Positions 8,232-26,219 of a stretch of 26,882 nt of DNA are shown here, piece by piece. The stretch is from positions 1 through 26,882 of the IMG/VR virus record IMGVR_UViG_3300043172_000315; one strand, 5' to 3'. Position 1 is the first letter of the stretch. The number at the start of each line of letters is the position of its first letter. The notes under the pieces were generated by a model. The model was not told the DNA's origin. It saw only the letters and a program-made list of their open reading frames with translations, and did not search any database. The stretch comes from a virus. The position numbers and the translations under genes are program-made.

Positions 8232-8242
8232 TGGAGAAAAAC

Positions 8243-8271: not shown

Positions 8272-8305
8272 TATGTAGGAGACTGCTCAATAAGGAAGCG
8301 GCAAT

Positions 8306-10866: not shown

Positions 10867-12488
10867 TGGCAAAACCGAGAACTCCAGTGGGACAATTTGA
10901 TCCGACAGGCTATGAAGCAGAAGCAGAAGCCGAGGCGGATGCACCTACGACGACAAATACGGGAGCACCTATACCTGTACCGTCGCCGCAATCCCTAACC
11001 CCGGAACGGCCTGAGATAATTGCTGGCCCCTTGGCTAGGGGGTTGCAAAGCGCTCTCATCGGTCAGGCATTTGAGTCCTTCGGCAAAGCCTTCAACGGTG
11101 GTGGGTACACCCCAGTAGGGCAAGCAGTACAGCCGACGCCAGGGATGGCGAACTGGCGCAATGCAGGCCAACAGGTGCAGAAAGCACTGGAGGCACGCTG
11201 GTACCAAGCAGAGTTGAAGAACTTCCGCAACGCAGAGCTGAAGGAGATGCAGACCAACATGCAAGGGCTCATCGAAGAGTCCAAGTTTCACAACAAAGAG
11301 CTGAACCGGGGGCGGTGGCACGAAGCTGGCCCCGAAGGAGAAGTAACTATACTAGATCTGAGCACAGAAGAGGGTCGTCTACAACAGGTAGAGCTGCGAG
11401 GGCAGCTGCAAGCAGACATGATCAACCGCGTTGGGGAGATGCAGATCGCCCTTGGTAACGCTGCGGCTGAGAAGTACCGAATGAACCCCCTCATCAACAA
11501 GATGGTCGCGGATCTGTACAAGCACACCTCCAATTCCTTGGTGACACAGTTCAACCCGCAAGCAGCACAGAAGACAGCTGAATCAATGTCTGGCCTACGT
11601 GTGGACGAGGCTAAGATCCGCCAGATGGACGCACAAGGCAGGGCATCTGACGCTCAGGCCAAGGCTGCGGGTACCAAGGACCCCACGGGCCTCCGTGCTG
11701 CGTACGACCAAGGTGGTGCTGGCAGGCTGGATGAGTTCATCAACGGCACTGATTCAGGCAACTCTCTGTGGATGCAAAACAGAGATAGGTATGATGAAAG
11801 AGTCAAGCAAGACTTCTACCGGAAGTGGCGCGCGACGAAGGGTAAGAAGGTCACGGTCAACGCGCAGGCGAAGATGGAAGCTGACTTCGACAAGAATCAG
11901 GATCGTCTTACCAAGTTGGGACAGTATCATTGGATCAAGGACACGTTGGGGGAGGAGGTTGCGAACGAGTTCTCTAAGGCGAACCCTGGTTACGGCCCCG
12001 AGGATGAGGGTCCGGTAGATTTCGCTGTCAAGGGTGCTGTGGAACCGAAGGCTGCGAAGCAGAAGGCCGAGAAGTTCGCAGGCATCGCACTGGACAAATA
12101 CGCCGAGTGGATGGCCGAGCAAGATCCGGAGGAGGCAGGCTTCGAAGATGGCGTCGATTTCATCATGAAGGAGTGGTTGCCTGCGGCTCTCGCTGGTACG
12201 CTTGATCCCACGGTTGAGGTACATGCTGAGTATATCTCTGACAACCTCACCGCCGGTGAGACTAAGGCGACAGCTGAGTACAGGGCTCTTGTACGCTCAA
12301 AGATCCTGGCTCAACTAGAATCTAAGGCAGGCTCTGGTAAGGGTGGCAAGGGGCTGAAGGAGCACCAGAAGGCTCCCAAAGCACCGCGCGGCCCCAAGGG
12401 TGGGCTAACTAGGGCTGTCAAGGGTTTGTTCGGTGACGATACTTACTCTGAAGAGGCACCTCCGCAACCGTCCGAACCTACAATCTAA
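10866..12488 (+). CDS. Internal virion protein (T7 gp15-like position)
   Basis: I recognise no named domain. The 540-residue product is hydrophilic and mostly helical, with an acidic Ala/Glu repeat early on (EAEAEAEADAP, about 18-28), a Pro-rich stretch to residue 50, then long Gln/Ala/Lys helices (about 90-330) that look coiled-coil in part. The C-terminus is Gly/Lys/Pro-rich (KGGKGLKEHQKAPKAP near 495-510) and ends acidic. Its place between a gp14-like pair and a 1211-residue protein mirrors T7 genes 14-15-16, so it is probably the middle component of the DNA-ejection complex. Start overlaps the previous stop (TAATG). Confidence in a virion role is fair; the exact part is inferred. Confidence 0.65.
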   Translation: MAKPRTPVGQFDPTGYEAEAEAEADAPTTTNTGAPIPVPSPQSLTPERPEIIAGPLARGLQSALIGQAFESFGKAFNGGGYTPVGQAVQPTPGMANWRNAGQQVQKALEARWYQAELKNFRNAELKEMQTNMQGLIEESKFHNKELNRGRWHEAGPEGEVTILDLSTEEGRLQQVELRGQLQADMINRVGEMQIALGNAAAEKYRMNPLINKMVADLYKHTSNSLVTQFNPQAAQKTAESMSGLRVDEAKIRQMDAQGRASDAQAKAAGTKDPTGLRAAYDQGGAGRLDEFINGTDSGNSLWMQNRDRYDERVKQDFYRKWRATKGKKVTVNAQAKMEADFDKNQDRLTKLGQYHWIKDTLGEEVANEFSKANPGYGPEDEGPVDFAVKGAVEPKAAKQKAEKFAGIALDKYAEWMAEQDPEEAGFEDGVDFIMKEWLPAALAGTLDPTVEVHAEYISDNLTAGETKATAEYRALVRSKILAQLESKAGSGKGGKGLKEHQKAPKAPRGPKGGLTRAVKGLFGDDTYSEEAPPQPSEPTI

Positions 12489-12497
12489 GAGGTAATT

Positions 12498-15400
12498 ATG
12501 GGTCTGTTTTCCCAAGACGACAATGAGTCTGAAGGTCTGTTCACCGAGGGTGGCACGGAACGTAGCACGAACTACGCCAAGGGCAAGGGCAAGAAGTCCA
12601 AGCCCGAGTTCAAGGACACCGAGCTGTCCGCTAAAGGCTTGCAGTTCACACAGACTTCCGTGAATATCCTAAAAGGTAAGGAACCTCAAAGGAAACAAGC
12701 CTTCGGTGCTGATGGTGAGTCTCTGTTCTCAATGGACGAGCCGCCTAAGACCATCGAGATGGACGCCGTTATCTCCCGCATCCCTGATGAGGACAAGTCC
12801 AGCATCGCTTCCAACACTATGGAATTCCTGTTCGGGCCTGAGCTGGGGCTGATCGGGGTTGCACATGACGCCGAAGGTTGGTCATGGTCTGTTGACAACA
12901 TGCAGCAGCAGTGGTCTGAGAACCCGCTGTGGGTCAACGCCCTCGCCACTACCTCCCTGGTAGGGGCTCTCCTACTGCCCTCCGCTATGGCTGTGCGCTC
13001 CTCCATGAAGGTTGGAAAGCTCGCAGGCAAGGCGGGTAGACTCGCCAACGAAGCAGACGAGATCGCCAAGTGGCATACGAAGGGGTTGATCGCCGACCAG
13101 AACGTGAAGGCGTACTCCCAGCTAGGTGGAGACTACGAGAAGACAGTCCAGATCCTACGCAAGCAGGAGGTTTCCCTTGACCGCTATACTGCCATGAAGA
13201 CCCGTGCCCAGCGGGCGCAGAACGGTGAGCTAACCTGGGGTAGCCCTGTCGAGAAGATACAGCATGAGTTCGACAAGCGCTTCGCTCAGACGTACAACAA
13301 CATGATTGGGAAGGCAGGCAACGGCGACATCAAGGGTCAGTTCCATGCGAACCATGAAGCACTGTGGAAGAACGACACCATCGGTACCATCCTAGGTGAC
13401 ATGCCCGATGAGGCCGCAGGCCCTGCCATCTACGCCTACCTTATGGCGAAGAACGGCCACGTACCTGCCGAGGGTGCCAAGAAGTTCGGTAAGCTGTCCG
13501 AAACAGACAGGATCTGGGCCGACTTCTACTTTGAGAATGCGTCGAAGCAGCAGCTCAAGATGATGGAAGACGGGTTCATTACCCCCGAGACCTACAAAGC
13601 CGTCGGTGCCATGCATCTCCCGGCTCAGAACATAGGTTCTATCGACCCCATGATGGACGTTGGGCGAATCCAGATGGTACCTGTCAGCACCCTCAAGAAG
13701 CGGAAGGGTGTGGCTGGTATCGTAGAGCATACTGAAGAGCGCACAGGCCTCGGTCGGCTATTCGGTAAGACTAAGACCACATACAAGCCCGAGGGTGAGT
13801 TTGAGTACGTGGCTGTGAAGATGGACGCGCGACCCAGGCTGGACAGCACCACGCTACTGCACCGCTCAGGTACCAACGATGAGATCTACGACCGCTTGAT
13901 GAGTGGTCAGCTGATTACGGATCCGGCCGATGTCTCGACAAGAGGATTCATGCTGGACGGGTTGCTACACACCAACTTCAAGCTCGTACGTGACCTCGCC
14001 ATGGACAACAACTACATCGCCAGCGCTGCGGACATAGCAGCGTGGGGCGGCAACGCTAAGAAGGCAGCGAAGGCTGGCTTTGTACGCCTGGACTACGCAG
14101 GGGACGGCGCAGCTGCTACCTTGCGCCGCATGATCGCCAAGAAGAGTGGTCAACCTGAGCAGGAGCTGCCTTGGATCCGGAAGGCTGTCTTCGATGACAT
14201 CTTCGGTGAGAACGGCATGATGGCCCAGACCACCAGTGCTGGCGGCGACATGATGGACGTGATGACTACCATCTACAAGACGATGAAGACGGCTGGTAAC
14301 ATCCCCACCCACCTTCAGAACCTCACAGGTAATATGATCTTCCTCAGCCAAGCAGGCTTCAACCCCGTGGCCCCGCAGAACGTGGCGCTCATGGGCAAGC
14401 TTACCAGCACCTTCAATACCATCGCAGACATCAACCGCGCAGGCCAGAAGGCAGGTATCAAGGGGCGGAGCCTCTTCGATCCCAAGTCTGGCATGCTCAA
14501 AGGCGTGGACCTGGGCAAGATCAAGGTACGCGGCAAGACATTCGACATGAACGAAGAGATGTTCGATCCGATCATGAGAGACTTGATCGAGGAGTCGGCG
14601 TTTGAAAGTGTCGAGGGTTCCGGTCACCTAGAGAGGATCTTGGGTAGATTACGTGAAGATCAGCACTCGACAAAGGCTATGATTAAGCTGTATATGAAGG
14701 GTAAGAACGCAGCCCAGCTGGGCGGCAAGGCACCTTGGTTCGACAAGCTGACCAAGGCGTACCTCGGAGAGGACATGGTGCCCAAGATGGCGTACTTCAT
14801 GGACCTTAGAGGGCAGGGGTTGTCCCGTCAGGCAGCGGCCACTGAGGTGGCTAGACGCCTGCCTATGTACGGTACGGTTGGCTCAGCGATTAAGAGTACC
14901 CGTAAGTTTGCGTTCCCGTGGGCCACCTTCCCTGCTGAGGCCATGCGTATCACTAAGAACAACATCCAAGACCACCCGCTCCGCATGATGCCGTGGCTGA
15001 AGGCACCGCAGTTGATGCAGTCTATCTTCAGTGGTATGGGTTACGCCGAGGATCCGACGGGTGTAGCGGAGGCCAAGAGGCAGCTCCCCACCTGGGCACA
15101 GACACCCGAGACCGTGATAGCAGAAGGAGGCGCCAGTGGGCTCTTCGGCGGTGGTATGACAGGTGCTATCGTAGGCGGTGCTATCGGTGCCGCAGTCTCT
15201 AGAACTGCTGGCGGTGCATACGCAGGCATGGCGGCAGGTGCAGCCCTAGCTGGCACGGCGGTAGCGTTGACCACAAGTGAGGAGCACGACAAAGAGATAC
15301 GCGGTGCGATCATGAACTTCCTACCCCACTCCACCTTCATGCTGGCTTCCAACTCGATTGACTTCGGCGGGGAATACCTGCCTTTCAAGGACATCCGGGG

Positions 15401-16133
15401 TGCTATTGAGCAGACCCCTGCTGAGCCGCTGGCTATTCTCAAGCCTCTCGTTTCTGCCTTCTCTGGTGAGACCCCCCAAGGTGAGCCTGTAGGTAGTGGT
15501 ACCCTAGGCAGTGGTGTAGCCAAGTCCCTAGCGGGCATGCTAGGTTTCCTAGCACCCCCGCTGTTGCAGAAGTACGGCATGAAGCTGACCACCCCCGACG
15601 TACCCATCTGGGGAGACCCGACAGGTATGACCAATATGTCCCGGTTCCTTACGGACACGGGGCAGGCTGTTGATCCCATGACAGGGCGACCGGGGAGTAT
15701 GGGCCAGGACTTCTTGCTTAACAACTTCGGTGCCTGGAAATCGTACGCCGCTAGTGGGGCACAGCAGCTGGCAAACGAGGCGAGGGCTGACAGCCACTTG
15801 GAAACGATCCGGAACAACCTCACGAAGAACCTCAAGTACCACCTTGAGAATCAGAATGAGAAGGACGTGGTCAGTATCCTCAGCAACGTGCAGGCTACCT
15901 TCGCCAACCAGTACGTGTATGACCCGCTGCTTGCACAGAACAAGTACACTGAGTGGCTGGAGCGGCACGCTGAGACTATTGGTAGGCACCCGAAGCTCAG
16001 GGCCTGGAGTGCAGAAGAGCTGATCGCTAGGCTGCAAGAAGCTGGGGAGCTGGCAGGGTATGCCCGAAGCCATGCCCGCACCAAGCTACTTGAGGCACTA
16101 AGGAATGAGATAATGCTAAAGGGGGGTGGTTGA
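12498..16133 (+). CDS. Large internal virion/ejection protein (T7 gp16-like size) with hydrophobic and glycine-zipper segments
   Basis: At 1211 residues this is the largest gene on the strand and close to T7 gp16 (1318). The N-terminus is acidic and disordered. A hydrophobic segment lies at about 144-168 (ATTSLVGALLLPSAMAV). A long glycine-zipper stretch at about 877-930 (GGGMTGAIVGGAIGAAV, then GMAAGAALAGTAVAL) is of the kind found in membrane-inserting proteins. Between them is a helical body of about 700 residues. I see no lytic transglycosylase motif, unlike T7 gp16. Probable role: cross the inner membrane and form a channel for the genome during ejection. The start has AAGAGGT six bases upstream, the only gap (nine bases) in this part of the operon. 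It ends in TGATG with the next gene. Confidence 0.68.
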   Translation: MGLFSQDDNESEGLFTEGGTERSTNYAKGKGKKSKPEFKDTELSAKGLQFTQTSVNILKGKEPQRKQAFGADGESLFSMDEPPKTIEMDAVISRIPDEDKSSIASNTMEFLFGPELGLIGVAHDAEGWSWSVDNMQQQWSENPLWVNALATTSLVGALLLPSAMAVRSSMKVGKLAGKAGRLANEADEIAKWHTKGLIADQNVKAYSQLGGDYEKTVQILRKQEVSLDRYTAMKTRAQRAQNGELTWGSPVEKIQHEFDKRFAQTYNNMIGKAGNGDIKGQFHANHEALWKNDTIGTILGDMPDEAAGPAIYAYLMAKNGHVPAEGAKKFGKLSETDRIWADFYFENASKQQLKMMEDGFITPETYKAVGAMHLPAQNIGSIDPMMDVGRIQMVPVSTLKKRKGVAGIVEHTEERTGLGRLFGKTKTTYKPEGEFEYVAVKMDARPRLDSTTLLHRSGTNDEIYDRLMSGQLITDPADVSTRGFMLDGLLHTNFKLVRDLAMDNNYIASAADIAAWGGNAKKAAKAGFVRLDYAGDGAAATLRRMIAKKSGQPEQELPWIRKAVFDDIFGENGMMAQTTSAGGDMMDVMTTIYKTMKTAGNIPTHLQNLTGNMIFLSQAGFNPVAPQNVALMGKLTSTFNTIADINRAGQKAGIKGRSLFDPKSGMLKGVDLGKIKVRGKTFDMNEEMFDPIMRDLIEESAFESVEGSGHLERILGRLREDQHSTKAMIKLYMKGKNAAQLGGKAPWFDKLTKAYLGEDMVPKMAYFMDLRGQGLSRQAAATEVARRLPMYGTVGSAIKSTRKFAFPWATFPAEAMRITKNNIQDHPLRMMPWLKAPQLMQSIFSGMGYAEDPTGVAEAKRQLPTWAQTPETVIAEGGASGLFGGGMTGAIVGGAIGAAVSRTAGGAYAGMAAGAALAGTAVALTTSEEHDKEIRGAIMNFLPHSTFMLASNSIDFGGEYLPFKDIRGAIEQTPAEPLAILKPLVSAFSGETPQGEPVGSGTLGSGVAKSLAGMLGFLAPPLLQKYGMKLTTPDVPIWGDPTGMTNMSRFLTDTGQAVDPMTGRPGSMGQDFLLNNFGAWKSYAASGAQQLANEARADSHLETIRNNLTKNLKYHLENQNEKDVVSILSNVQATFANQYVYDPLLAQNKYTEWLERHAETIGRHPKLRAWSAEELIARLQEAGELAGYARSHARTKLLEALRNEIMLKGGG

Positions 16134-16474
16134 TGTTTCATAGGTTGGCAGCATGCGCGTTTGCGTTGATTATGGTATTGGCGATTCTGTTTCTGGTAGC
16201 GCTCCGGAGTGATGGCGCTGACTTCGACGGCGACTGGCTGTTGGAAGACCTGACGTGCGGTGAGCTGCGTGAGGCTTACGGCTTCGGTAGCGTGATGCTA
16301 GACCAGATTATCTACGCACACGACCAGTGCATGGACTATGCCCAGTCACCTGCTGATGCTGGCTTCGGTAGGCTACACTGCGAGTTGATCGAGAAGGAAG
16401 GCAAGTTCGTGCAAGGGATGGTCAACGACATCGTTGATGTGTTCAACGCTAAGCCAGAATGTACTAACCCATGA
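16133..16474 (+). CDS. Small exported or membrane-anchored four-cysteine protein 1
   Basis: The product has 113 residues from the ATG that overlaps the previous stop (TGATG). An N-terminal hydrophobic segment (about 5-24, AFALIMVLAILFLVAL) after a short basic start should act as signal or anchor, so the rest would face the periplasm. The soluble part has cysteines at 42, 66, 83 and 110. The gaps (23 and 16 residues between the first three) are identical to those in the next gene product, and the fourth lies 26 against 24 residues on. Two disulphide bonds in a small helical fold are likely. Placement at the end of the late operon would suit superinfection exclusion, an envelope role or lysis support; none can be shown. 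I know no named family for it. Confidence 0.7.
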   Translation: MFHRLAACAFALIMVLAILFLVALRSDGADFDGDWLLEDLTCGELREAYGFGSVMLDQIIYAHDQCMDYAQSPADAGFGRLHCELIEKEGKFVQGMVNDIVDVFNAKPECTNP

Positions 16475-16845
16475 AGATCATGCTCGCTATAGTTATAGTG
16501 ATCATCCTGCTCATGGCTGCTGCCGCTGCGTCCAAGCCGGGTAACCCAGTAGACGAGACCGACCCTGATCTAGTGAGAAGCTACCTCGCCATGCCGTGTG
16601 ATGGCCTCGATGAGTTGTATTCCTTCCTGTATGACGGGATGAAACACATGACAGCCCACTACAAAGACTGCATCAATAGGGCAGAAAACGACTCCGACTT
16701 TAAATACGGGTATCTCAAGTGCTACTATATTAAACTGGAATGGGATTTGCTGGACAAGCACGCGTTGGCTGTCGAGAGGTCGTGGGACCTTATGTGTGAC
16801 GACTGGGGCAATCGGAAAGAACGCGAGTACAATATAGACTTCTAG
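16471..16845 (+). CDS. Small exported four-cysteine protein 2
   Basis: The 124-residue product starts in an ATGA overlap with its neighbour. A strong signal sequence (MKIMLAIVIVIILLMAAAAA, likely cut before SKPG) is followed by a soluble domain with cysteines at 43, 67, 84 and 109. Spacing equals that of the preceding protein for the first three, and aligned positions such as C-x2-L-x2-Y/xY and G-x-L-x-C are kept, so the two are diverged paralogues. It is richer in aromatic and charged residues than its partner (KCYYIKLEWDLLDKH). Its stop TAG lies in the CTAG that also holds the stop of the opposing gene. Function unknown; a periplasmic location is the firmest inference. Confidence 0.7.
   Translation: MKIMLAIVIVIILLMAAAAASKPGNPVDETDPDLVRSYLAMPCDGLDELYSFLYDGMKHMTAHYKDCINRAENDSDFKYGYLKCYYIKLEWDLLDKHALAVERSWDLMCDDWGNRKEREYNIDF
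16842..16845. other. CTAG shared by two convergent stop codons
   Basis: The plus-strand four-cysteine gene ends with TAG at 16843-16845 and the minus-strand zinc-ribbon gene with TAG at 16844-16842. The palindrome CTAG serves both. There is no space for a terminator between the opposing operons, and I see no hairpin plus T-run close by on either side. Confidence 0.9.
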
Positions 16846-17045
16846 TCTTCTTCCTCACCATCGTACTCAGTAGGGTATCCCTCTAGATCGTTCATGATCC
16901 GGAATCCAAGCTCGTATAGCTCTTCTTCATCTTCGGTATCATCCGGGGCATAGTACACCACGTCCAGGGACGAGGACTTCTGACAGCTCACGCAGAGAAG
17001 CCCGTTCTGGGTGTACCTACCGCACTTACATCTTACTAGCGACAT
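16842..17045 (-). CDS. Small zinc-ribbon protein with acidic tail
   Basis: The 67-residue product opens with a compact metal-binding motif: C6-x-C8 and C18-x2-C21 (RCKCGRY...LCVSC), which fits a small zinc ribbon. After residue 34 it is strongly acidic (DDTEDEEELYE, ending EYDGEEED), as in proteins that contact nucleic acid-binding partners or mimic DNA charge. It is the last gene of the leftward operon, and its start lies 20 bases inside the end of the glycosyltransferase gene. A GGAG stands ten bases before the ATG, a little far. No function can be assigned. Confidence 0.65.
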   Translation of the reverse strand: MSLVRCKCGRYTQNGLLCVSCQKSSSLDVVYYAPDDTEDEEELYELGFRIMNDLEGYPTEYDGEEED

Positions 17046-17772
17046 GCTGTAGCTTCTCCAAGTCAGAGCTTACTGGGAAGTTGTTGATCGGCGCTCGCAA
17101 GATAGGTAGTTCTTTCAACAGGTCGAAGGGTACCAGCTCTCCTGGGTGGTACGTGCCTTGTGCCTTTCGATCTAGCCTCTTAGGTACCGACCCCTCCAAG
17201 GGCGAACGTAGAGCGTTGTGGAAGTGCCAGCACATCACATCATCAAGCTTGAACTCATTGCTTTCCTTCTGCCTGTATCGAGGCGCTTCTCCTGGGTGGT
17301 TACCGATGAAGTACGCATTCCTACGGTACAGGCGGTGGTGGGTGCGCTCGTCTGAGTAGCGGTGGAGCAGGTTGGTCGCCATCTCGGTGCGCTTGAACAC
17401 CCCATACTTCAGCTCAGTGAGGCTCGATGTTCTTGTCAACGCATCAAACCCAGTAGTCAAGGCGTCCAGGCTGGTGGGGTGGTACACCTCGTCGGCGTCC
17501 ACCATGAACGTCCATTCTGTCTCGGCCTCCACCAGCATGCTGTTGCGGTAGCACCCTTGGATGTCAGGCACTGCGAACGGTAGCCTGCGGACGAAGATCT
17601 CAGCTTTCTCTGTCTCCACGAACCAGTCAATGATGTTCTCGGTGCCATCCTCACTACCTGCATCATAGATCACGTACCGATGAAACCTACCACGTAGCGC
17701 CTCAAGGGCGTACGGAAGCCAGTACTGATCGTTCATCACCAAGATGGTGGGTGTCAACCCTTCAATCTTCAT
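17026..17772 (-). CDS. Glycosyltransferase, GT-A fold (family 2-like)
   Basis: The 248-residue product is a nucleotide-sugar-dependent transferase. Seen: an N-terminal Rossmann-type start (LTPTILVMNDQYWLPYALEAL), YDAGSEDGT at 36-44 for nucleotide binding, and the metal-binding DXD in FMVDADE (Asp92 and Asp94). A later KLDDVMCWHFHNALRSP stretch is typical of the acceptor side of small GT2-like enzymes. It lacks membrane segments, so it should act in the cytosol. It overlaps the upstream Cys-rich gene by 11 bases and is preceded by AAGGGGAT. With three other transferases in the same operon it probably adds one sugar of a short glycan; donor and acceptor are unknown. Confidence 0.85.
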   Translation of the reverse strand: MKIEGLTPTILVMNDQYWLPYALEALRGRFHRYVIYDAGSEDGTENIIDWFVETEKAEIFVRRLPFAVPDIQGCYRNSMLVEAETEWTFMVDADEVYHPTSLDALTTGFDALTRTSSLTELKYGVFKRTEMATNLLHRYSDERTHHRLYRRNAYFIGNHPGEAPRYRQKESNEFKLDDVMCWHFHNALRSPLEGSVPKRLDRKAQGTYHPGELVPFDLLKELPILRAPINNFPVSSDLEKLQHVASKM

Positions 17773-17965
17773 CCTTATCCCCTTTGAGAAAGTGTTCTAT
17801 GCACTCATCAAACCCGGAGAACCTGCTTGGGTCCGTATGGTTCGCTGTCATTTCCTTCTCACACCACTTGCACCAAGTAGTTTTGCCTTGATCGGAGCCA
17901 GAACATCGGTACTGTATTTTGCCCGCTTCGTGATCTCCATTGGGTGACTCTTTGCAATCAGACAT
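17762..17965 (-). CDS. Small Cys-rich protein, probable zinc binding (junction-duplicated pair, member 1)
   Basis: The 67-residue product has cysteines at 4, 21, 32, 35 and 55, with WCKWCEKEM (C32-x2-C35) as the clearest metal knuckle and an SGFDEC motif at 50-55. The likely start is the ATG at 17965, six bases after GGAGG; a GTG just upstream is less well placed. The ribosome site lies inside the last codons of the preceding gene. The same 18-base junction (one difference) precedes the next gene upstream, and both proteins carry SGxDEC, so they may be old duplicates. The C-terminus is acidic. Function unknown; the protein sits between two glycosyltransferase genes. Confidence 0.6.
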   Translation of the reverse strand: MSDCKESPNGDHEAGKIQYRCSGSDQGKTTWCKWCEKEMTANHTDPSRFSGFDECIEHFLKGDKDED

Positions 17966-18194
17966 CACACACCTCCATTATAATGTCATCAGGAAACTCA
18001 TCATCAACCAACCATGTAGCACACTCATCATGCCCACTACTATCATGATCTATGTAAACTCCCATACCAAACAAGGGGCTCTTTGGCTCTCTATAAATGG
18101 AGAAGCAAGGACAAGTATGACTAAAGTGTCCTTTAGGACGCATACATTCCAAACCGAACTCAGGTAACCCCTTATCACACCTTTCACTAGACAC
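17958..18194 (-). CDS. Small Cys-rich protein, probable zinc binding (junction-duplicated pair, member 2)
   Basis: The 78-residue product starts at a GTG six bases after GGAGG; there is no ATG. Cysteines and histidines cluster (ERCDKG, LECMRPKGHFSHTCPC), and SGHDEC appears near residue 53, as in the following gene. It ends MEVCDV, and the codons for EVC form the ribosome site of the next gene. The upstream glycosyltransferase ends LEVCGV with nearly the same bases and serves this gene in the same way. A zinc-binding adaptor is a guess; no family is recognised. A GTG one codon earlier is a possible alternative start. Confidence 0.55.
   Translation of the reverse strand: MSSERCDKGLPEFGLECMRPKGHFSHTCPCFSIYREPKSPLFGMGVYIDHDSSGHDECATWLVDDEFPDDIIMEVCDV
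17960..17977 (-). repeat. Duplicated ribosome-site/start junction, copy 1
   Basis: TGGAGGTGTGTGATGTCT on the minus strand: the end of one gene (EVC codons), ribosome site and start of the next. It differs from the copy at 18189-18206 only in the first base of the start codon (ATG against GTG). Confidence 0.8.
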
Positions 18195-19095
18195 CACACA
18201 CCTCCAGTATTTGCTCCACCCTGTTCTTCACTTGATGCTGCTCGACCGCAAGTGCATAAGCACGCCGCGCCATAGACGCTGCAAGGCTCGGTTCCCTAAG
18301 GCACCAGTCAATCTGATTAGCAAGCTCAGCCTCAGTAGCGTAGCCAAGGTAGTGCTCTCCTTCTTCAAACAACTTAGACATGCCGTCCCTGGGGTCACGA
18401 TCTGTGACCAGCGGGCGCTCCATCAGCATGGACTCAATCACTCTTTGGTTAGGGCCGTCGTGCTTCTGACCACAGTTGAACAGCACCTTGCATCGGGCCA
18501 TAGCCTCCGAGGTGTGGGGCCAGCGCTGCCCGTGCTTACCGATCTCTCGTACGTCCAGCGTCCATGTATGGCGCTGGGCAATAGGCTTCAGTGGATCAGC
18601 TCGGTCGATCCCACCCTTGCTACCAAAGAACCCGATGTCATGGGGCCGAGACTCATGCAGTTCAGGTAGTACACCCTTGTAGAAGTAGTGGGTATCACTA
18701 GCGTTGGGGCACCAGTGTACGGAGGGGTGGTTGGTGAAGATGTCACGCCTGTCCCACACCGCAAAGAATACGTGGTCGTAGTACTGAGCCTGCCTCTTGT
18801 GCAGGCTGGGGTGACCGTGGGTATCTACGTACCGCACTGCTGAGGGGATGGGTGCCCGCTCCTCTAGGAAGGCTAGGTTCCCTTCTTTGTTGCGCCCGCA
18901 GTCTAGGTCAAGGAAGAGGTCAAATGACTCGACAAACGGTACGTTGTTAAACGCAGTGTGCGCGTGGCCTTCTCCCATCGGCAGCACCCAGTGACCCAGC
19001 TCTATGAGTGCGCGCATGTAGCTGTCCGTGTAGGTTTCCGTAGGCTTACCGTGCTTATCCTCGGTCTTCCTGCACCCTAGGAGGATGTTGGTCAT
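18187..19095 (-). CDS. Glycosyltransferase, GT-B fold, CgeB-like
   Basis: The 302-residue product resembles the CgeB/spore-maturation type of GT-B transferases. Seen: an N-terminal Rossmann start (MTNILLGCRKT), a middle section with HDIGFFGS (152-159) and the C-terminal donor-site pattern NQRVIESMLMERPLVT (216-231) with Glu221 at the place of the EX7E motif. DGMSKLFEEGEHYLGY follows, and the helix that ends such proteins (EPSLAASMARRAYALA). It lacks membrane segments. The gene is joined to the GT2 gene upstream by TGATG, with GGAG eight bases before the start. Its last codons encode the ribosome site of the next gene. It probably transfers a nucleotide-activated sugar; specificity unknown. 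Confidence 0.8.
   Translation of the reverse strand: MTNILLGCRKTEDKHGKPTETYTDSYMRALIELGHWVLPMGEGHAHTAFNNVPFVESFDLFLDLDCGRNKEGNLAFLEERAPIPSAVRYVDTHGHPSLHKRQAQYYDHVFFAVWDRRDIFTNHPSVHWCPNASDTHYFYKGVLPELHESRPHDIGFFGSKGGIDRADPLKPIAQRHTWTLDVREIGKHGQRWPHTSEAMARCKVLFNCGQKHDGPNQRVIESMLMERPLVTDRDPRDGMSKLFEEGEHYLGYATEAELANQIDWCLREPSLAASMARRAYALAVEQHQVKNRVEQILEVCGV
18189..18206 (-). repeat. Duplicated ribosome-site/start junction, copy 2
   Basis: TGGAGGTGTGTGGTGTCT on the minus strand, spanning the last codons of the CgeB-like gene and the GTG start of the next gene. Partner of 17960-17977. Confidence 0.8.
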
Positions 19096-19844
19096 CAGGT
19101 AATCTCCAGCGGGTAGAAGATCTCACCCTTCATTCGTACAGCCTTGGCTACCTTCTTGTTCCTAGCTATCTGCGCGTCAATCTCTTCCTTGGGATCGTTC
19201 CAGCGCCCCCCTTCCGTGTCTCCTACCTGCTTGAACTTGTCCCTGGCCTCGGCTATATCCACGTACCCTAGGGGGTGGGACACCAGCCCCGCCTTGATCA
19301 CCCGTGCCGACCAGTCACCATGCGCGTAGCCTACACCCTTGAAGTCAGGGTGGAAGCCACCCACTGTTTTGATGACCTTCTTCGTCAGGAAGGTGAGATC
19401 CCCTCGGGGTGAGGTTGCATAGATAGGGGTGAGGCCAACAGCGCTCTTGAGGTATTGCGTGAACGTCGGGTGTGTCTCGGGGATCTCTTTGTCTTGGATA
19501 CGGCAGAAGTGGTGGATATCCATGATCACAGAGGCCGACTCGTACTGCTCAAACCAGTCCTTCTCCGTGGGTACGAGGTCATCTTCAAGTATGCACATGA
19601 AGTGGTGGTTCTGCATGAGGTAGAGGCAGCGGTTCTTGTTGGCACCCACGCCTTTGTTGGGGCCTGTAAGCAGCGTCACTGTAGGGAAGTCGAGGATGGG
19701 GGTGATGCCGTCGTAGTCGCTGCCATCGTCACACACAAACACATCCGTCCCGTTGGGTACGGTAGACAGCACACCCTCAATCACCTCACCGATGTGGTCG
19801 CCTCGGTTGTATGTGCTGATGCTAACTGCCCTCTTCGTCTGCAT
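19095..19844 (-). CDS. Glycosyltransferase family 2 (GT-A)
   Basis: The 249-residue product shows the GT2 pattern: [14 protein letters not shown] at the N-terminus, FVCDDGSDYDG (about 36-46) for the nucleotide, NKGVGANKNRC, the DXD-like CILEDDLVP (Glu87-Asp88-Asp89) and the later GYAHGDWSARV, where the GDW corresponds to the ED/DW acceptor motif. I chose the ATG at 19844 because GAGG lies six bases before it; the ATG two codons earlier has GAGG directly adjacent, and longer versions would cover a small upstream gene. The start overlaps the end of that small gene. No membrane helix, so a soluble enzyme. It belongs to the operon of four glycosyltransferase genes. Confidence 0.85.
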   Translation of the reverse strand: MQTKRAVSISTYNRGDHIGEVIEGVLSTVPNGTDVFVCDDGSDYDGITPILDFPTVTLLTGPNKGVGANKNRCLYLMQNHHFMCILEDDLVPTEKDWFEQYESASVIMDIHHFCRIQDKEIPETHPTFTQYLKSAVGLTPIYATSPRGDLTFLTKKVIKTVGGFHPDFKGVGYAHGDWSARVIKAGLVSHPLGYVDIAEARDKFKQVGDTEGGRWNDPKEEIDAQIARNKKVAKAVRMKGEIFYPLEIT

Positions 19845-19983
19845 CTTCATCCTCGCATTGATCCGTAAGGTACCGTAGTGCTGCGCCCGCAACTTCCACC
19901 GCCGCATCGACAGAAGGGAACTCAGTCTCTGGCGCGTTCTTGTAGCTCTCTTCGATAAGCTTCAGTACGTCATCCTTATTCAA
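19822..19983 (-). CDS. Small acidic protein, TTG start (53 residues)
   Basis: Between the 1045-residue transferase and the GT2 gene the minus strand holds a 53-codon frame that uses the whole gap. It starts with TTG in a TTGA overlap with the upstream stop, seven bases after AGGAG, and ends 22 bases inside the GT2 gene. The product begins [18 protein letters not shown], has an amphipathic Ala/Val helix ([15 protein letters not shown]) and an acidic end ([11 protein letters not shown]). It looks like a small helical accessory protein, perhaps a partner of a neighbouring transferase. The clear ribosome site and the tight packing make it likely real, though no homologue can be named. Confidence 0.65.
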
Positions 19984-22900
19984 AACAGATCTCCTATGAG
20001 TTTCTTCCAGTTCTTCTTGTACTGCGTGGGATCGGCTGCTGCTGCGGCCGTATCGTACCCACTCATAACGAAGTCACGTCTTAGCTGCGGTTTCACCATG
20101 AGTCTCTCAGCCTGCTTGGTTAGATCATTCACGCTGCCTACAGGTACGAGCGCGCAGTTCTTCCCATCCTTCAGGAACTCAGCCCCTGTGTCAGTGGATA
20201 CAATAGCGCACCCAGCCGACATAGCCTCAAGCGTCATGCGCCCTAGCCCCTCAGTATGAGAAGCGTTGAGCCAGATATCTGTCTGAGCCATAAGCTGTGC
20301 CATTTCTTTCCTAGAAGGCGACAGAAAGTAGTTAAGCCAGGGCGGCTTACCTTTACCGAACAAGGGGTTTTCTCCTACTCCTACGAACTGTAGCTTTCCA
20401 GGGAACTTCTGAGCCAAAGCCATCATGGTTTGCAAGGCTTCGGTTGTACCCTTGAGGGGGTGGGCATGAATCAGTGTGCTAATCACGAGGGTGCTGCTAT
20501 CAAGGTTCCCGAAGTTTCGTTGTTCGGGAGTGTGATGAAACGTGTCGTGGGCGTAGTGGTACCATCCCACTCGACGAGCATTCTTGTGTGTGTTGTGTTC
20601 CCACCCCTCAGCAACCTTCTCGCAAGCCTTCTTCAACCAGTTAGTACTGGTGACGATAGCGTCCCACTTGAGGTTGAGTGAGTCAGTCTCAAGGGATTGG
20701 AACCTCTGGTTGTGCGACAGCTTCAGCATCACCTTCTTCTTAATGTGTGCCATCTCCGTGAACTCCTTGTTGTGTTCGTTATCGGAGTTGGTTATCAGTA
20801 GGTCGCACGGAGGGATCTTCGTCCAATCCACACGGATAGGTACTCTACAATGCTCTTGAATAGAGGGATTGATATCTGGGTAGATTGTGTACAAGGTCAC
20901 GTCGTGTCCCAGATCCTGAAGCAGGTGTGCGATATCCAGAATCGTAGTAGGCCCTCCATACTTCCGGAGGTGGGGTGTGATCACCGCAATCTTCTTATAG
21001 TTGGGCTCCAAGTCTAGCGTCTTCTCAAAGAGCTTAACGACATCGACTAGGCGTTCCGAACGACGGTACCCCCGGGACGTGAGTTGTGCTGCTTCACGCA
21101 ACGCGGCAAAGCGCTTAGGCTCATTGAACAGGATGTTGTAGATGCGCTCCGCTACTACCTCGGAGGTCGTCTTGTTGGGGAAGATGATAGAGTCTATGTC
21201 ATTGGTGGCATACTCAAGGATGCCCTTGTTGTTCCAGCACACCGGCACTGCACCAGAAGCCATCGCCTCAAGGGAGGGGAGACCGTAGCTGTGGTTGCTA
21301 GCAGGGTCACAGAAAACATCTACCTCTCTCCCTAGGAGATCAGCAAACTTTGTCTGAGCTAGTGTCCCGAGCCCTACTATGAACTGGCAACCGGGTACCG
21401 TGCTGGTACCTGTCGCTAGGATTCGTAGTTCTTGCTTGTTCTCTTTGGCTAGCTTCATGAGGTGGCGACACAACTCCACGCCCCGGTCGTGTCCCTTGAA
21501 CGGGTACCCTTGGTTACCCAAGGCGATGAGGAGTGTCTTCCTCTCATCGCCGTGCTGCCTACCTCTTGGATAGAACATGTAGTCATCGTACCCAACAGAC
21601 ACACTACCATGAACCTTATGAGACTTGGCCATCTTCTTGGCCGTCCACTTACTGTTGGTGATGGTGAACTCGGCTTCTTTGTTTGCCTCACGAATAGACT
21701 TGGTCAGCGCTGTCGTTGGCGCTATCGAGCAATCATCGCTCTGCGAGAAGTGAACTGACGTGAGGTCGGGGTTGTTACGTGTGAGGTTCAGGACATGCTC
21801 CATCAACTCACCGGTACCTGCTACGACGTACCCTTGGCGGAACACCCGTTCCTCAAAGTTGGACAGGAAGTCTTGAACGCCCTCCTTGAAGACCACTGGT
21901 GCTGACCGCAGCGAGGGTAGCAACGGATCCTCCCCATCGGGGGTTCTCTTGATACGTACAACCTTCGCCTCTACATTGAGTTCATTGAAGAAGTTGACTA
22001 GGTCAGCGATCACTCTCATACCGCCACAGTTCTCAGTACTGTACACGACGAAGGCGATACTGTATCGGGATGAGTCTTTGGATATTATATCCTTAGAGAT
22101 AGGAGATCTAAGAGTTTTCAACGTCTTCTCTGTATCGAAGTTGCGCTGCCACTCTTTGAAGGAAGGCCACGCCGCATGGAACCTAGCGGCTCCCGACTTC
22201 CGGTACCCCATGTGTTCCTCGTCACCTAGCACGCTGAAGGAAGTCCCTCGCTCATGCCAGATGTAGGTGTCGTCAGCGAGCACCGCCTTCCAATTTGATA
22301 CCTGCCCGTCTACAATGCGGGTGATGCAGCGCATCCAGTAGTCAGTCTCTTCCCCGTAGGACACGTACCCCTCATCGAACAGTCCGATCTCAGCGATGAT
22401 GCCTCGCTCAAACATGAAGCAGAACCCTGTCGGCATGATCTCTGGGTACATGTGGGAAGATATCTTCTCGATAGCTCTGTTCATATCGTTGAAGTCGTGG
22501 CCCTCTTGGAGGGGAACGTTAATAACTGCGGTGTTGTTGGTGCAAGGGTTGACGATCTTGTTACGCTCGTCTGCCTTCAATGCAAGCACCATCTTGAACA
22601 ACCACCCTGGGGTGACTACGGTGTCCGAATTAAGGACACAGATGTAAGGAGCTTTTCCTTCTTCGATACCTCGGTTGACAGAGGCGGCGAACCCACGGTT
22701 CTTCTGATTGAACAACACTGTGTGGTTAGGGTTCTTCTCCTGCCACATACCCAACCACACCTTCGTGCGTTCGTCGGGTGAGCAGTCGTCTACAAGGATG
22801 ATACGGTGCGGCCATGTAGTACGCTGTTGCACTGACTCGACACAGGCAATGAGTACATGAAGGCCCCCATATACAGGGATCACGATGTCTACTGGTTCTA

Positions 22901-23117
22901 CCCCTGTCTCTAGTAAGGAGGTAACAGCGTGGCTAAGGTTCTTGTTACCCTCGATAGTAGCGGTGGTAGCTTCTAGAAGTTTCTCCCCTAGCGCGGTGAT
23001 ATAGGCCTGGGCTTGGGGACTGACCGCAGCGGCGTTGTCTTCTTCAATCTCGGCAACGAACCTATTAACTTCCTCTTGCGTCTTGGGTACCCACACACCC
23101 TTGCTATCAAATGACAT
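19980..23117 (-). CDS. Three-domain glycosyltransferase: GT2 + GT4 + GT4 (1045 residues)
   Basis: Three catalytic-type domains lie in one chain. Domain 1 (about 76-310) is GT2: [20 protein letters not shown] (Asp110/Asp111), CVLNSDTVV (the DXD position at 163-165) and [10 protein letters not shown] (about 255-264). Domain 2 (about 350-695) is GT-B family 4, with the donor-site pattern [17 protein letters not shown] (610-626). Domain 3 (about 708-1040) is a second GT4 unit with [19 protein letters not shown] (955-973). The first 75 residues are helical and charged. There is no membrane segment. Such a chain could add two or three sugars in turn. It overlaps the dCMP deaminase gene by 11 bases and the small TTG gene by four. 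Donors and acceptor are unknown. Confidence 0.88.
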
Positions 23118-23589
23118 GGTCTATGATCCTCACCTGTGCTGCGTGCATGACCTCTCGGGCCTTCTTGAAGTTCTCTTCATACTCACCCCACCTTCCATTC
23201 AACCAGAACGGATCGGCTTCCTTGGAGGGGATGATGACCTCCTTGAACCCAGCCTGCACGATAGCCTTGGCGCACTCAGTACAAGGGTGGGAGGTGGTGT
23301 ACAGTACGGCATCCAGTAGCTTGGTGCCGCTGCGTGCTGCGTTACAAATGACGTTCATCTCAGCGTGAGCAGTCCAGTTGTATTTCTCAGGGCGCTCATG
23401 GCGCGCGTCATTCTCGTCGTCAGCATACCGGACGAACCCGTTGTACCCTAGAGACAAGACGGTGTGCCCCTCCCCCACAGCTACGGCCCCCACCTTGATG
23501 GATCGATCCTTGGACTTGGAAGCCACAAGGAAAGCCATCTCCATGAAGAAGGCGTCCCATCTCGCTATGCTGAGTTTGTCATCGAACAC
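23107..23589 (-). CDS. Deoxycytidylate (dCMP) deaminase-like protein
   Basis: The 160-residue product has the zinc-dependent deaminase signature: HAE (His75, Glu77, in [10 protein letters not shown]) and PCTEC (Cys103, Cys106), with an N-terminal [18 protein letters not shown] and [10 protein letters not shown] as in phage dCMP deaminases. It should convert dCMP to dUMP and so feed thymidylate (or a modified pyrimidine) supply. I place the start at the GTG at 23589, seven bases after GAGG and overlapping the previous stop by 11 bases. An ATG at 23640 would add 17 residues but overlap 62 bases. A ComE-type or riboflavin-type deaminase is less likely given the length and motif context. Its end overlaps the large glycosyltransferase gene. 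Confidence 0.85.
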
Positions 23590-23980
23590 CGGGTGCCCTC
23601 GAACCTCGCGTGTCGCACTCAGGCGGCACGAACTCTCCATCTACTACTACTATTTCATTGGTTATCCCACAGATAGAGCAGTTGGAGTTCTTGTGCTTAC
23701 AGAGCAGTGTGACGTTACCAAGGCTACCCTTCGGTGCGCCTTTGCTGTACCCTGGATCCTTACGAGGGTCATCTCCTGCTGCCATGCGGCAGTACCACGC
23801 AGCCTTGTTCAGATCCTCAACCGAGTTGATCTTGTGGCCTGCTCTCCAGTTGTACTTGATGGCGTTCCCACGACAGTACGCAACGAAGCCTTCCTCACCT
23901 AGCGCGTACTTGATCGCGTCGATGCATTCCAGCTCTGTCTGGTTGTAATGGGACGGGCTATTGACCATGTCTTCGGACAT
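23579..23980 (-). CDS. DUF3310 protein with C-terminal zinc-ribbon-like segment
   Basis: The 133-residue product has a clear DUF3310 domain at about 4-65 (DMVNSPSHYNQ, ECIDAI, YCRGNAIKYNWRAGHK, EDLNKAAWY). The domain occurs in many phages, including T7 gp1.7, which has been reported as a nucleotide kinase; whether that activity lies in this domain alone is not certain. After a Lys/Gly-rich linker comes a likely zinc site: C94, C101-x2-C104 and C122 (LLCKHKNSNCSICG...PPEC). AGGAG lies ahead of the ATG, and a sigma70-type promoter stands 20 bases further upstream, so it is the first gene after that promoter. It is followed by the dCMP deaminase, consistent with a nucleotide role. Confidence 0.8.
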   Translation of the reverse strand: MSEDMVNSPSHYNQTELECIDAIKYALGEEGFVAYCRGNAIKYNWRAGHKINSVEDLNKAAWYCRMAAGDDPRKDPGYSKGAPKGSLGNVTLLCKHKNSNCSICGITNEIVVVDGEFVPPECDTRGSRAPGVR

Positions 23981-23999
23981 CTCTCTCTCCTATGTCTCT

Positions 24000-24028
24000 A
24001 TTATATGTTTTCCTACGAGCGATTGCAA
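24000..24028 (-). promoter_or_regulatory. Sigma70-type promoter for the deaminase/glycosyltransferase operon
   Basis: In the only sizeable gap of the minus-strand operon: TTGCAA (24028-24023, 4 of 6 to consensus), a 17-base spacer and a perfect TATAAT (24005-24000), all outside coding sequence and 20 bases before the DUF3310 start. This suggests transcription by host RNA polymerase. Not tested for activity. Confidence 0.65.
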
Positions 24029-24035
24029 GGAAAAC
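24007..24035. promoter_or_regulatory. Inverted repeat around the -35 box, operator-like
   Basis: GTTTTCC (24007-24013) and GGAAAAC (24029-24035) form a perfect seven-base inverted repeat separated by 15 bases, which enclose the -35 element and reach to within one base of the -10. The position fits a repressor or activator site better than an RNA hairpin, because it lies upstream of the expected transcript start. Confidence 0.45.
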
Positions 24036-24040
24036 TGCAC

Positions 24041-24367
24041 TTATTCTTCGAATCCTTCTACCTTTCTGATGGACCCTGTGGTGAGATCGATGACCTCTCC
24101 GTTCTCGTAGTGGCGTTCCAGCACCTCAGCGAAGCAGCGGATGTGGACGCGCCAGTCCGAGCTGATCATCAGGTGCATGCCTGTATTGAACCCAATGAAC
24201 TTCTTGCACGAAGCACAGCGGGGAGGCATCTTCTTCCGGAGGTGGAGGGCGGTATCCTCCCCCTTGTGTCCGGATCCCGATGCCGTCCTGATGTCATCCT
24301 CTACCTGCACGGCAGAGTCTTCTTCCTCAGGAGGGACGAACCACTCCCGCCAGTTCGACACGTTCAC
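24041..24367 (-). CDS. Small zinc-finger-like hypothetical protein
   Basis: The 108-residue product has an acidic first half (PPEEEDSAVQVEDD) without clear structure, then a CxxC/HxxC metal site: C51-x2-C54 (PPRCASCKKF) and H75-x2-C78 (VHIRCF), about 20 residues apart, in the manner of a treble-clef or LIM-like knuckle. The end is Gly/Glu-rich. The start is a GTG in a GTGA overlap with the stop of the deoxyribosyltransferase-like gene. It is the last gene before the promoter gap. DNA or protein binding is possible; I know no family. Confidence 0.65.
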   Translation of the reverse strand: MNVSNWREWFVPPEEEDSAVQVEDDIRTASGSGHKGEDTALHLRKKMPPRCASCKKFIGFNTGMHLMISSDWRVHIRCFAEVLERHYENGEVIDLTTGSIRKVEGFEE

Positions 24368-24783
24368 TTCCGGATGCGGTTATTGAAGGTAACGATGTGA
24401 TCGTACGCCTCATGCATGCTACCGAACACCTTGTGAGAATGATAGTGAACCCAGGGTGAGAGCTGCAACCCCAAGGGGTTCACAACGATCACACGCTTCT
24501 GCTTCTGCCACGCCAGGATGATCTCCATAGCTGTGCCAGTGCTGGGCTTGGTGTAGTTGACAAGCACCACGTCCGACATCTCTATGTCGATCTTGTCTTC
24601 TTCTACCAGCTGAGGCAGTACACTCACCGGGTCATCCCCGTAGGCTGTGTATCGGTAGTCACGATCCATTGGATCCAGGGTCGTGATACCGAAGCCGTTG
24701 AGGTGTAGCGTTGCCGCCTTCCTCCAGGCCCCTGCCTCTTCGTCAGAACACCCGGCCATCGGTCCGCATAGGTAGACTCTCAT
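24364..24783 (-). CDS. Nucleoside 2-deoxyribosyltransferase-like protein
   Basis: The 139-residue product starts MRVYLCGPM, the nucleotide/ribose-binding opening of the nucleoside 2-deoxyribosyltransferase fold (also DUF4406). LDPMDRDYRY and EEDKIDIEMSDVVLVNY follow, then STGTAMEIILAW with Glu87 at the place of the catalytic nucleophile, and KRVIVVN. Family members exchange or hydrolyse the base of deoxynucleosides or deoxynucleotides; in phages they may salvage bases or remove unwanted nucleotides. I start at 24783 because AGGAGG lies five bases before that ATG; an earlier start would overlap the exonuclease gene and add 21 unrelated residues. It sits 14 bases after the exonuclease gene. Confidence 0.78.
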   Translation of the reverse strand: MRVYLCGPMAGCSDEEAGAWRKAATLHLNGFGITTLDPMDRDYRYTAYGDDPVSVLPQLVEEDKIDIEMSDVVLVNYTKPSTGTAMEIILAWQKQKRVIVVNPLGLQLSPWVHYHSHKVFGSMHEAYDHIVTFNNRIRK

Positions 24784-24797
24784 AGATACCTCCTCTG

Positions 24798-25601
24798 TCA
24801 CTTGCTTGAACCTCGTCGCTTCTTGATTGGGGTGTCGTTGTACCATTTGCTGCTAGCTACTGTCGAGTACTTCCCGCAGATGCCCTTACCATTCTTCTTA
24901 GGAGTAAAGCACCGGAATTGTGTGTGCTGGCCACCCTTCTGGGTGGTCCGATCCTTCTCCCACTTGGTGTTGCTGCCGCCACAGTGAGGGCAGTCTGTCA
25001 TGCTGTTGCCCTTGTGTCCCACGGTGTTTACGTAGGGCAGGAAGGCTTCATAAACTTTCATGGTCTGATCTACGTCACGTTCGCAATATTCAATCATCTC
25101 AAGCATAGCAGGCTTGCTCTTGTCGAACACCACCTTCTGCCATAGCCCAGTGGGCGGCTCGATCTTACCTTCTAGTCCCAAGAACTTGGCGATGTACTTG
25201 AGGCCGTTACCCTGGAAGCGGAAGAAGCGCTTCGCCTGCTTCCATGTATCGATGGTGACGAAGTCAGGGGGACAGGGCAACCGATGGAAGAGGCAGCGTG
25301 TACGCAGCCACTTGATATCGAAGTTGTCTGAGTTGTGCCCGATGATCGTGCCAGCTGACTGCATAATCGGGATGAACTTCTTGAGCAACGCCTTGTCGTT
25401 CTGCTTGGCGTCCCACTTGATGGTGTGGATTTCCTTCTCGCCTTCCCATTGGTAACTGACACAGATCACAGCTGGCTCTTTGATCAGGTTGCCGGTGGGC
25501 ACGTTGATGCCGTAGCCTCCCTTCCACAGCCAGTAGATAGCCGGGGAGACCTCAATATCGAAGACTACTCTGTCACCTGTACGGTCTACTTGTTTACTCA
25601 T
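24798..25601 (-). CDS. DEDDy 3'-5' exonuclease with C-terminal zinc ribbon
   Basis: The 267-residue product has the three exonuclease motifs of the DnaQ/PolB proofreading fold: FDIEVSP (Asp15, Glu17), IGHNSDNFDIKWL (Asp95) and EYCERDVDQT (Tyr172, Asp176), thus DEDDy type. After residue 195 comes a zinc ribbon: C204-x2-C207 (DCPHCGGSN) and C231...C242, ending in a basic tail (KKRRGSSK). There is no polymerase domain. It may proofread for, or work next to, a separate polymerase, or process recombination ends together with the endonuclease VII gene just upstream. The ATG at 25601 has GAGGAG six bases before it; its start overlaps the upstream stop by eight bases (ATGAGTAA). Confidence 0.85.
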   Translation of the reverse strand: MSKQVDRTGDRVVFDIEVSPAIYWLWKGGYGINVPTGNLIKEPAVICVSYQWEGEKEIHTIKWDAKQNDKALLKKFIPIMQSAGTIIGHNSDNFDIKWLRTRCLFHRLPCPPDFVTIDTWKQAKRFFRFQGNGLKYIAKFLGLEGKIEPPTGLWQKVVFDKSKPAMLEMIEYCERDVDQTMKVYEAFLPYVNTVGHKGNSMTDCPHCGGSNTKWEKDRTTQKGGQHTQFRCFTPKKNGKGICGKYSTVASSKWYNDTPIKKRRGSSK

Positions 25602-25932
25602 CAATGTCTCCTCTTAGTATCTGCTGTGCCGGTAGCTCATCAAGATAAGCAGTGGCTGCTCTTAGCAGAGTAGTACTGTCTTTGAATTTGGCGATGGCTC
25701 CGTTGCATCCCCAACACAGTAGTCCCCGTACTCGTTTCCGTGTCTCTTCCGGAGGCTGCTTCTTGTCCCTCTTCACATGAAGGTGGTCAACATGAAGCCT
25801 CCGTTGACCGGGCTTGGGTACCTTCTCACATATGAAGCAGGCGCCCTGCTGCAACTCAAGTATCGCCTCGTACTCAGCCTCGGAGATTCCGTAGCGGCGT
25901 CGGAGGTATGAGTCTCTTGCTGTCCTAGCCAT
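25594..25932 (-). CDS. Endonuclease VII-like HNH nuclease (Holliday-junction resolvase type)
   Basis: The 112-residue product has the zinc and active-site pattern of phage recombination endonuclease VII: C32-x2-C35 (ACFICEK), HVDHLH (Asp49, His50, His52) and C73-x2-C76-N77 (LCWGCNGAI). T4 endonuclease VII has the same order (two CxxC pairs around DHxH, then Asn) in 157 residues; this one lacks the long C-terminal part. It also carries the RRRYGISEAEYEAIL lead-in common to this family. Role: cutting branched DNA before packaging or in recombination. It is joined to the upstream gene by TAATG and overlaps the exonuclease start. Confidence 0.87.
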   Translation of the reverse strand: MARTARDSYLRRRYGISEAEYEAILELQQGACFICEKVPKPGQRRLHVDHLHVKRDKKQPPEETRKRVRGLLCWGCNGAIAKFKDSTTLLRAATAYLDELPAQQILRGDIDE

Positions 25933-26219
25933 TACCGAGGTGTATCCTCTTTATAGCACACGTCTACTAGGTAGCGGATAGCCATTGCTGCTAGCTGTCG
26001 TGCCTCTGTCTCTTCTACTTCAGGCGTAGGATTGCCGTAGGTGTTCATCTGCTTGTGAGGCCAGAACGCAGCATCCTTGAACTCAAGGAACTCCTCCTCT
26101 ACTATCGCCACACCCTCATGGGCAGAGCGGATGTCAGGGAAGTTCTCGTAGGCAGCGATCAGCTCGGCCCTCACCTCATCCAGCGCGCAGTCGATTAGGC
26201 TCTCAGTCTCGGGTGTCAT
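25932..26219 (-). CDS. MazG-like nucleotide pyrophosphohydrolase candidate
   Basis: The 95-residue, fully helical product shows an acidic ExxE-type motif (VEEEFLEFKDA, Glu41-43 and Glu46) and a second acidic/Ala helix (EARQLAAMAIRYLVDV) as in small phage proteins of the all-alpha NTP pyrophosphohydrolase (MazG-like) group. Such enzymes remove pyrophosphate from non-standard or alarmone nucleotides. The metal-binding set is only partly recognisable, so a non-enzymatic relative remains possible. I start at 26219, seven bases after AGGAAG; an upstream TTG frame start has no ribosome site. The gene overlaps the end of its upstream neighbour by 17 bases. Confidence 0.6.
   Translation of the reverse strand: MTPETESLIDCALDEVRAELIAAYENFPDIRSAHEGVAIVEEEFLEFKDAAFWPHKQMNTYGNPTPEVEETEARQLAAMAIRYLVDVCYKEDTPR

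Follow-up and report, generated by a model that had tools for sequence, protein, structure and literature searches.

A glycosyltransferase operon with six domains

The subject of this study is an operon of glycosyltransferase (GT) genes on a single viral contig of 26,882 bases (IMG/VR record IMGVR_UViG_3300043172_000315). This contig, referred to as the window, is a fragment of a genome without the terminase region. Its rightward genes (10-16845) form a virion module with PHROG matches to an internal virion protein and to tail and baseplate-like families, while leftward genes span from the right edge of the window to 16842. The operon occupies 24846 to 16842 on the minus strand. Its upstream part contains a dCMP deaminase gene, the gene of a DUF3310 protein and further genes, and the four GT genes, H, F, E and B, fill the final 6 kb of the leftward block with the small proteins G, D, C and A encoded between or after them (Table 1). 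An original prediction, made by reading the letters of the window, had placed six transferase domains in four proteins here. All six domains score above the Pfam curated cut-offs. The same prediction described the genes as overlapping and made together. Overlaps are indeed found along the whole GT stretch (H/G, 4 bp; G/F, 26-29 bp; F/E, 1 bp; E/D, 11 bp; D/C, 11 bp; C/B, 11 bp; B/A, 20 bp), and overlaps of 1-29 bp between neighboring genes support a single transcript, presumably with coupled translation.

Table 1. Genes of the GT operon and its immediate neighbors in the window
Feature	Position	Strand	Remarks
H, GT2 + GT4 + GT4	19980..23117	-	1045 aa; Pfam and 51 relatives
G, small acidic protein	19822..19983	-	TTG start; 36-81% identity in close relatives
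F, GT2	19095..19850	-	251 aa; start most likely ATG at 19850; Pfam PF00535, 3e-7
E, GT-B (CgeB-like)	18187..19095	-	Pfam PF13524, 2e-19; 44-90% identity in relatives
D, Cys-rich open reading frame	17958..18197	-	only in some close relatives
C, Cys-rich open reading frame	17762..17968	-	no relative detected
B, GT-A	17026..17772	-	Pfam PF13704, 7.5e-7; nearest solved relatives GmaR and SunS
A, zinc-ribbon-like, Cys-rich	16842..17045	-	67 aa; last gene of the operon
dCMP/cytidine deaminase	23107..23640	-	directly upstream of H; Pfam; position not shared by all relatives
Large virion-module protein	12498..16133	+	faces the operon convergently; landmark of the junction retained in relatives

Protein H carries a GT2 domain (about residues 75-335) followed by two GT4 domains (about 345-700 and about 705-1045). 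Pfam detects PF00535 at residues 78-244 (4e-23), and PF13692 and PF00534 in two stretches each. Of the relatives of H, 50 come from IMG/VR and one from a genome collection; they are 39-89% identical to it, and all three domains are present in every copy long enough to show them. Four catalytic motifs of H were tested, and three of them are retained in 40-42 of 43 near-full-length copies, namely LN[ST]D (42/43) and EE[TS]D (40/43) of the GT2 domain and E-x7-E of the second GT4 domain (42/43). In the first GT4 domain a histidine replaces the first glutamate in the window and in close relatives, and the mechanism of this domain may therefore differ in detail. Two of the three exceptions at EE[TS]D are intein insertions. 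In the H homologs at L079:3943-8328 and L085:6816-11144, in-frame LAGLIDADG inteins of ~390 aa lie exactly between the positions of E257 and T258 (window numbering), inside the motif; the terminase open reading frame on the contig of the first of these (G018) likewise has a LAGLIDADG insertion.

For the start of F, the ATG listed in Table 1 is preferred to 19907 because the alignment of relatives begins only there. Protein B has the invariant motifs DxD (D92-x-D94-E95), HPxE and HxH. When a B profile built from 18 relatives was compared with all PDB chains, the only matches at E < 0.01 were GmaR (4.8e-9), SunS (3.3e-7) and a related Glyco_trans_2-like entry (1e-4), and the GmaR/SunS match is limited to the GT-A catalytic core, some 110 residues long. 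The acceptors of GmaR and SunS are flagellin and a peptide bacteriocin. As a control, a second PF13704 protein from these phages was compared with the PDB and found no match, although this was a single-sequence query and hence a weak control.

The structure model of H has a predicted local distance difference test score (pLDDT) of 68.5 and a predicted template modeling (TM) score of 0.42, which is too weak for claims on the whole chain and is used for fold class only. The model of E (pLDDT 67.3) is of low confidence and is used in the same way; its Foldseek matches are GT-B enzymes. The two models, only moderate in quality, confirm the GT4 and GT-B folds by Foldseek without deciding the acceptor.

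The small acidic protein and the small Cys-rich proteins had also been counted in the original prediction. The former is present as G and is kept in close relatives. Three Cys-rich open reading frames likewise exist, but only A is conserved, with 65-97% identity in close relatives and 31-57% in several distant ones, which makes it the sole lineage-wide small Cys-rich member. C and D were rejected as components of the system since they are not conserved; in relatives their gaps are empty or are filled by HNH endonucleases or other genes.

Conservation of the operon in a phage lineage

At every locus with enough sequence, the genes are arranged in the order H-F-E-B and then meet the convergent virion gene. 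Because this order and the catalytic motifs are kept in dozens of relatives, the GT gene set is far beyond chance. Three relatives are of whole-genome size (~119.5 kb): G001 (119,470 bp), G002 (119,599 bp) and G005 (119,592 bp). In G001 and G002 the first bases recur near the end, as in circular assemblies. G005 (JAJFLM010000335.1) has 46% identity in H and shows the gene order of this genome type in circularly permuted form. It was the one contig matched when 84,980 genomes were covered by a pattern-limited scan; it is binned in a metagenome-assembled genome (MAG) of Deltaproteobacteria, with a GC content of 38% for the contig and 43% for an rpoB fragment of the MAG.

Comparison of G001 with G005, the most distant of the three, shows how deeply the operon is conserved. 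All four GT genes are kept (4/4) at 47-54% identity, compared with 51% for TerL and 38% for PolA, while reciprocal best hits were obtained for 17 of the 49 replication-side genes of at least 90 aa. The GT genes are thus conserved like the terminase and above the DNA polymerase, and the operon is therefore part of the core of the lineage rather than a set of morons. A search of phage records for near-identical DNA with the window gave no match. With TerL, E or B as query, isolated phages returned no more than one weak match.

Protein F has relatives in isolated phages. It is homologous to the N-terminal domain of a GT of cluster F mycobacteriophages; tblastn with F matched 571 phage records, of which 536 are Mycobacterium phages, and alignment with Eradicator gp92 by hhalign gave a probability of 99.3 (E = 2.7e-20). 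Rita gp101 is another homolog of F. In cluster F phages this GT adjoins a homolog of Che8 gp110.

A second, variable cassette behind the terminase gene

A second cassette of sugar-related genes, whose presence and variability are known from the relatives, was found in five of the seven relatives whose terminase flank could be read. It lies directly after the large terminase gene in G001 (96754-105127), G002 (16000-26202) and G005 (89480-97241), and was recognized by homology or by reading of open reading frames in G006 (partly read) and G014. The cassettes encode modifying enzymes (Sulfotransfer_1/3/4, Methyltransf_24, O-methyltransferases of the FkbM or rhamnosyl type, polysaccharide deacetylase, hexapeptide acyltransferase and nucleotide-sugar epimerase) together with further GTs (Rhamno_transf, GT2, GT17-like and TOD1/MUCI70-like). 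In contrast to the operon, the cassette varies. Between G001 and G002, 6 of 13 cassette genes are reciprocal best hits with a median identity of 58%, compared with about 80% for the GT genes; between G001 and G005 the figure is 2 of 13, compared with 4/4 for the GT genes. The cassette sulfotransferases tested had no PHROG match, and one of them had no match in 50,697 phage records. In the literature searched, phage sulfotransferases have marginal coverage only.

Nature of the acceptor

Taken together, a conserved GT set and a variable sulfating and methylating set suggest that members of this lineage probably make a sugar coat of their own design, which most likely covers the phage particles themselves. 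The operon would act as a soluble glycan-assembly line in the cytoplasm, without a lipid carrier, on a protein that is most likely part of the virion. B is the candidate initiating enzyme: since peptide or protein GTs are its closest relatives of solved structure, it would place the first sugar on the protein. H, with three active sites in one chain, together with F and E could then add up to five more sugars, drawn from host nucleotide sugars. It is plausible that this set is sufficient to build and attach an oligosaccharide, as the original prediction had supposed. In phages that have the cassette, the additional GTs, sulfotransferases, O-methyltransferases and acyl- or deacetylating enzymes would add strain-specific decorations to the conserved core. 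We infer the acceptor, the order of addition, the sugars and the link between operon and cassette from the genes, domains, motifs and co-conservation described above and from the cassettes of the relatives.

The lack of a membrane-bound transferase in the operon, which had been taken to argue for a soluble acceptor, either protein or DNA, was borne out, and a hydropathy scan gave the same result for two complete relative genomes. No protein of G001 or G002 has more than three hydrophobic segments, and hence neither a flippase nor an oligosaccharyltransferase was seen. There is precedent for a protein acceptor in isolated phages. Che8 gp110 and Corndog gp38 are reported to be essential for capsid glycosylation (PMC12363180), and glycans on the capsid protein have been reported for Che8 and Rita (PMC11256854). 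Together with the chlorovirus parallel discussed below, this leads us to give an even chance to a phage-encoded glycosylation, free of lipid carriers, of a protein that the phage encodes and that probably belongs to the virion. The fuller proposal, that phages of a ~120-kb lineage carry a sulfated, methylated and strain-variable virion glycan made by a wholly phage-encoded lipid-free line and diversified by the cassette, is tentative, and we consider it somewhat more likely to fail than to hold.

Several observations weigh against a glycan on the virion. The operon lies with the leftward genes on the replication side and not among the virion genes. No acceptor was identified from sequence, and inspection by eye of serine/threonine-rich virion tails as acceptors revealed nothing distinctive. 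The likeness of B to GmaR and SunS could reflect a fold subfamily rather than an acceptor; the PF13704 subfamily also contains GTs with sugar acceptors. F showed no homology to Che8 gp110, all hhalign probabilities being below 1. G010 and G018 lack the cassette beside their terminase gene.

The same enzymes could instead remodel the host surface: working from the cytoplasm, they would extend or build a polysaccharide or lipid-linked glycan of the host, and host export machinery would display the product so that the receptor is changed and other phages are excluded. H resembles capsule polymerases: the top Foldseek match of its model is a capsular polysaccharide multienzyme (8qoy), its GT4 matches include WaaG, PimA and PglA, and its sequence matches include chondroitin synthase. 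Sulfate, methyl and acetyl decorations occur on surface polysaccharides too, and a tyrosine integrase kept in the lineage makes lysogenic conversion conceivable. However, G001 and G002 contain no polytopic membrane protein, flippase or ligase by the hydropathy scan, the only genome contig matched by the pattern-limited scan is of phage size and not an integrated prophage, and conversion genes are usually accessory while the GT genes here are conserved like the terminase. We consider host-surface remodeling rather unlikely. A related proposal is that a host protein or small molecule is the target, for takeover or for defense evasion. The early, replication-side position of the operon fits this, the similarity of B to protein GTs is silent on whose protein is modified, and there is a weak phage GT4-conflict similarity; yet six linked GT domains far exceed the need of a one-sugar inactivating mark, and we believe such a target to be improbable.

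DNA, the other soluble acceptor originally considered, would be glycosylated on a modified base as a protection against restriction. The operon does include nucleotide-metabolism genes (dCMP deaminase and the DUF3310 protein), and T4 beta-glucosyltransferase is among the top Foldseek matches of E, with a TM score of only about 0.49 and other GT-B enzymes scoring equally. However, neither PF00303 (hydroxymethylase/thymidylate synthase) nor PF00145 (C5 cytosine methylase) was found in G001-G003, in a search that detected the positive controls, which makes DNA less likely as the acceptor; a protein is favored. A search for Tet_JBP (PF12851) also gave no match, but no positive control genome matched either. 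Sulfotransferases and epimerases are unlikely as tools for DNA. A role of the dCMP deaminase in a DNA-glycosylation pathway was rejected because its gene is not beside the GT genes in G001 and G002; nor was it judged a member of the system, since its position is not kept in all relatives. We consider hypermodification of DNA about as improbable as a host protein or small molecule as target.

Other features of the window and its relatives

Genes have been inserted into the GT operon of some relatives. In distant members a UDP-glucose/GDP-mannose dehydrogenase gene and a Methyltransf_24 gene lie inside it, which we count in favor of the proposed glycosylation. A peptide deformylase gene is found between F and E in L072-L076 and L082 (by Pfam in L072 and by reading in the others), and in distant relatives it is often preceded by an HNH endonuclease. 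An IMP dehydrogenase/GMP reductase family protein and a HAD hydrolase are encoded between E and B at L067:13316-14960 and L085:13205-15624; this insertion, for which Pfam was run on L067, is confined to one sub-branch.

In the window, the virion protein encoded at 8306-9682 has PHROG matches to virion/baseplate proteins. Its C-terminus (SDVRMKENITP...GVLAHEV) has, by eye, the look of an S74-type tail-fiber intramolecular chaperone. The major capsid proteins of G001 (8204-9421) and G005 (118350-119492) are 79% identical, compared with 27-54% for other shared proteins. Third codon positions of the two capsid genes agree at only 42%, which therefore points to strong purifying selection on the capsid protein and not to recent transfer. 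G001 also encodes, at 48510-51077 (L017:8510-11077), a single protein that joins a uracil-DNA-glycosylase superfamily domain at its N-terminus to a family A DNA polymerase. The G001 genes at 58058-59311, 69963-71180 and 72109-73257, for an RtcB RNA ligase and for a DUF2201 VWA-like protein with a MoxR-like AAA ATPase, are kept among the complete relatives.

Comparison with known systems

The six-domain GT operon belongs to the core of a broad and uncultured lineage, and in most members checked it is partnered by the cassette. In a few mycobacteriophages, experiments have shown that phage enzymes glycosylate the virion. If the glycan is indeed on the virion, such glycosylation would extend well beyond this group, and the lineage would provide a bacterial-virus counterpart of chlorovirus capsid glycosylation. 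The core-plus-decoration strategy would then have arisen a second time, probably independently. As far as we found in the literature searched, this organization has not previously been tied to a phage lineage. The operon would also be a source of soluble multi-GT enzymes that lend themselves to direct tests of their acceptors.

Among other phage systems, the mycobacteriophages (Che8 gp108-110 and Corndog gp38) also cluster GTs in one operon, and F is homologous to the GT beside the Che8 gp110 homolog. Che8 gp108, from a reading of its sequence, fuses GT-like and methyltransferase-like regions. The cluster F operon differs in having neither a GT2-GT4-GT4 protein nor a CgeB-like GT, and F is not gp110; the present lineage is distinct from these mycobacteriophages, with genomes about twice as large. 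SunS, which is prophage-derived, and GmaR share the DxD core with B as its closest solved relatives, but the similarity ends with the GT-A core. The DNA glucosyltransferases of the T4 type are likewise phage GTs of GT-B fold, a weak likeness that concerns E only; here no hydroxymethyl-base pathway was found, and a multi-GT chain with sulfation and methylation genes is present instead. GtrABC O-antigen conversion also uses phage-encoded GT2 enzymes. In contrast, the GTs of this lineage are soluble only, and the hydropathy scan of the complete genomes showed neither a GtrA-like flippase nor a polytopic GtrC.

We regard chlorovirus PBCV-1 as the closest working analogue. Its A111/114R protein, conserved throughout the chloroviruses, combines three GT domains and has been proposed to add three of the five conserved core sugars to the capsid protein in the cytoplasm, while the decoration, a methylated sugar included, varies per virus (PMC7826918). 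The likeness is one of architecture, with H, F, E and B plus the cassette compared with PBCV-1 by domain layout. In both cases the virus would encode its own enzymes and need no host organelles, a three-GT protein occurs throughout the lineage, and a conserved core set is accompanied by variable decoration genes. PBCV-1 differs in its algal host and in having the capsid protein as acceptor, while for the phages described here a virion protein is the probable acceptor and the variable set includes sulfotransferase genes.

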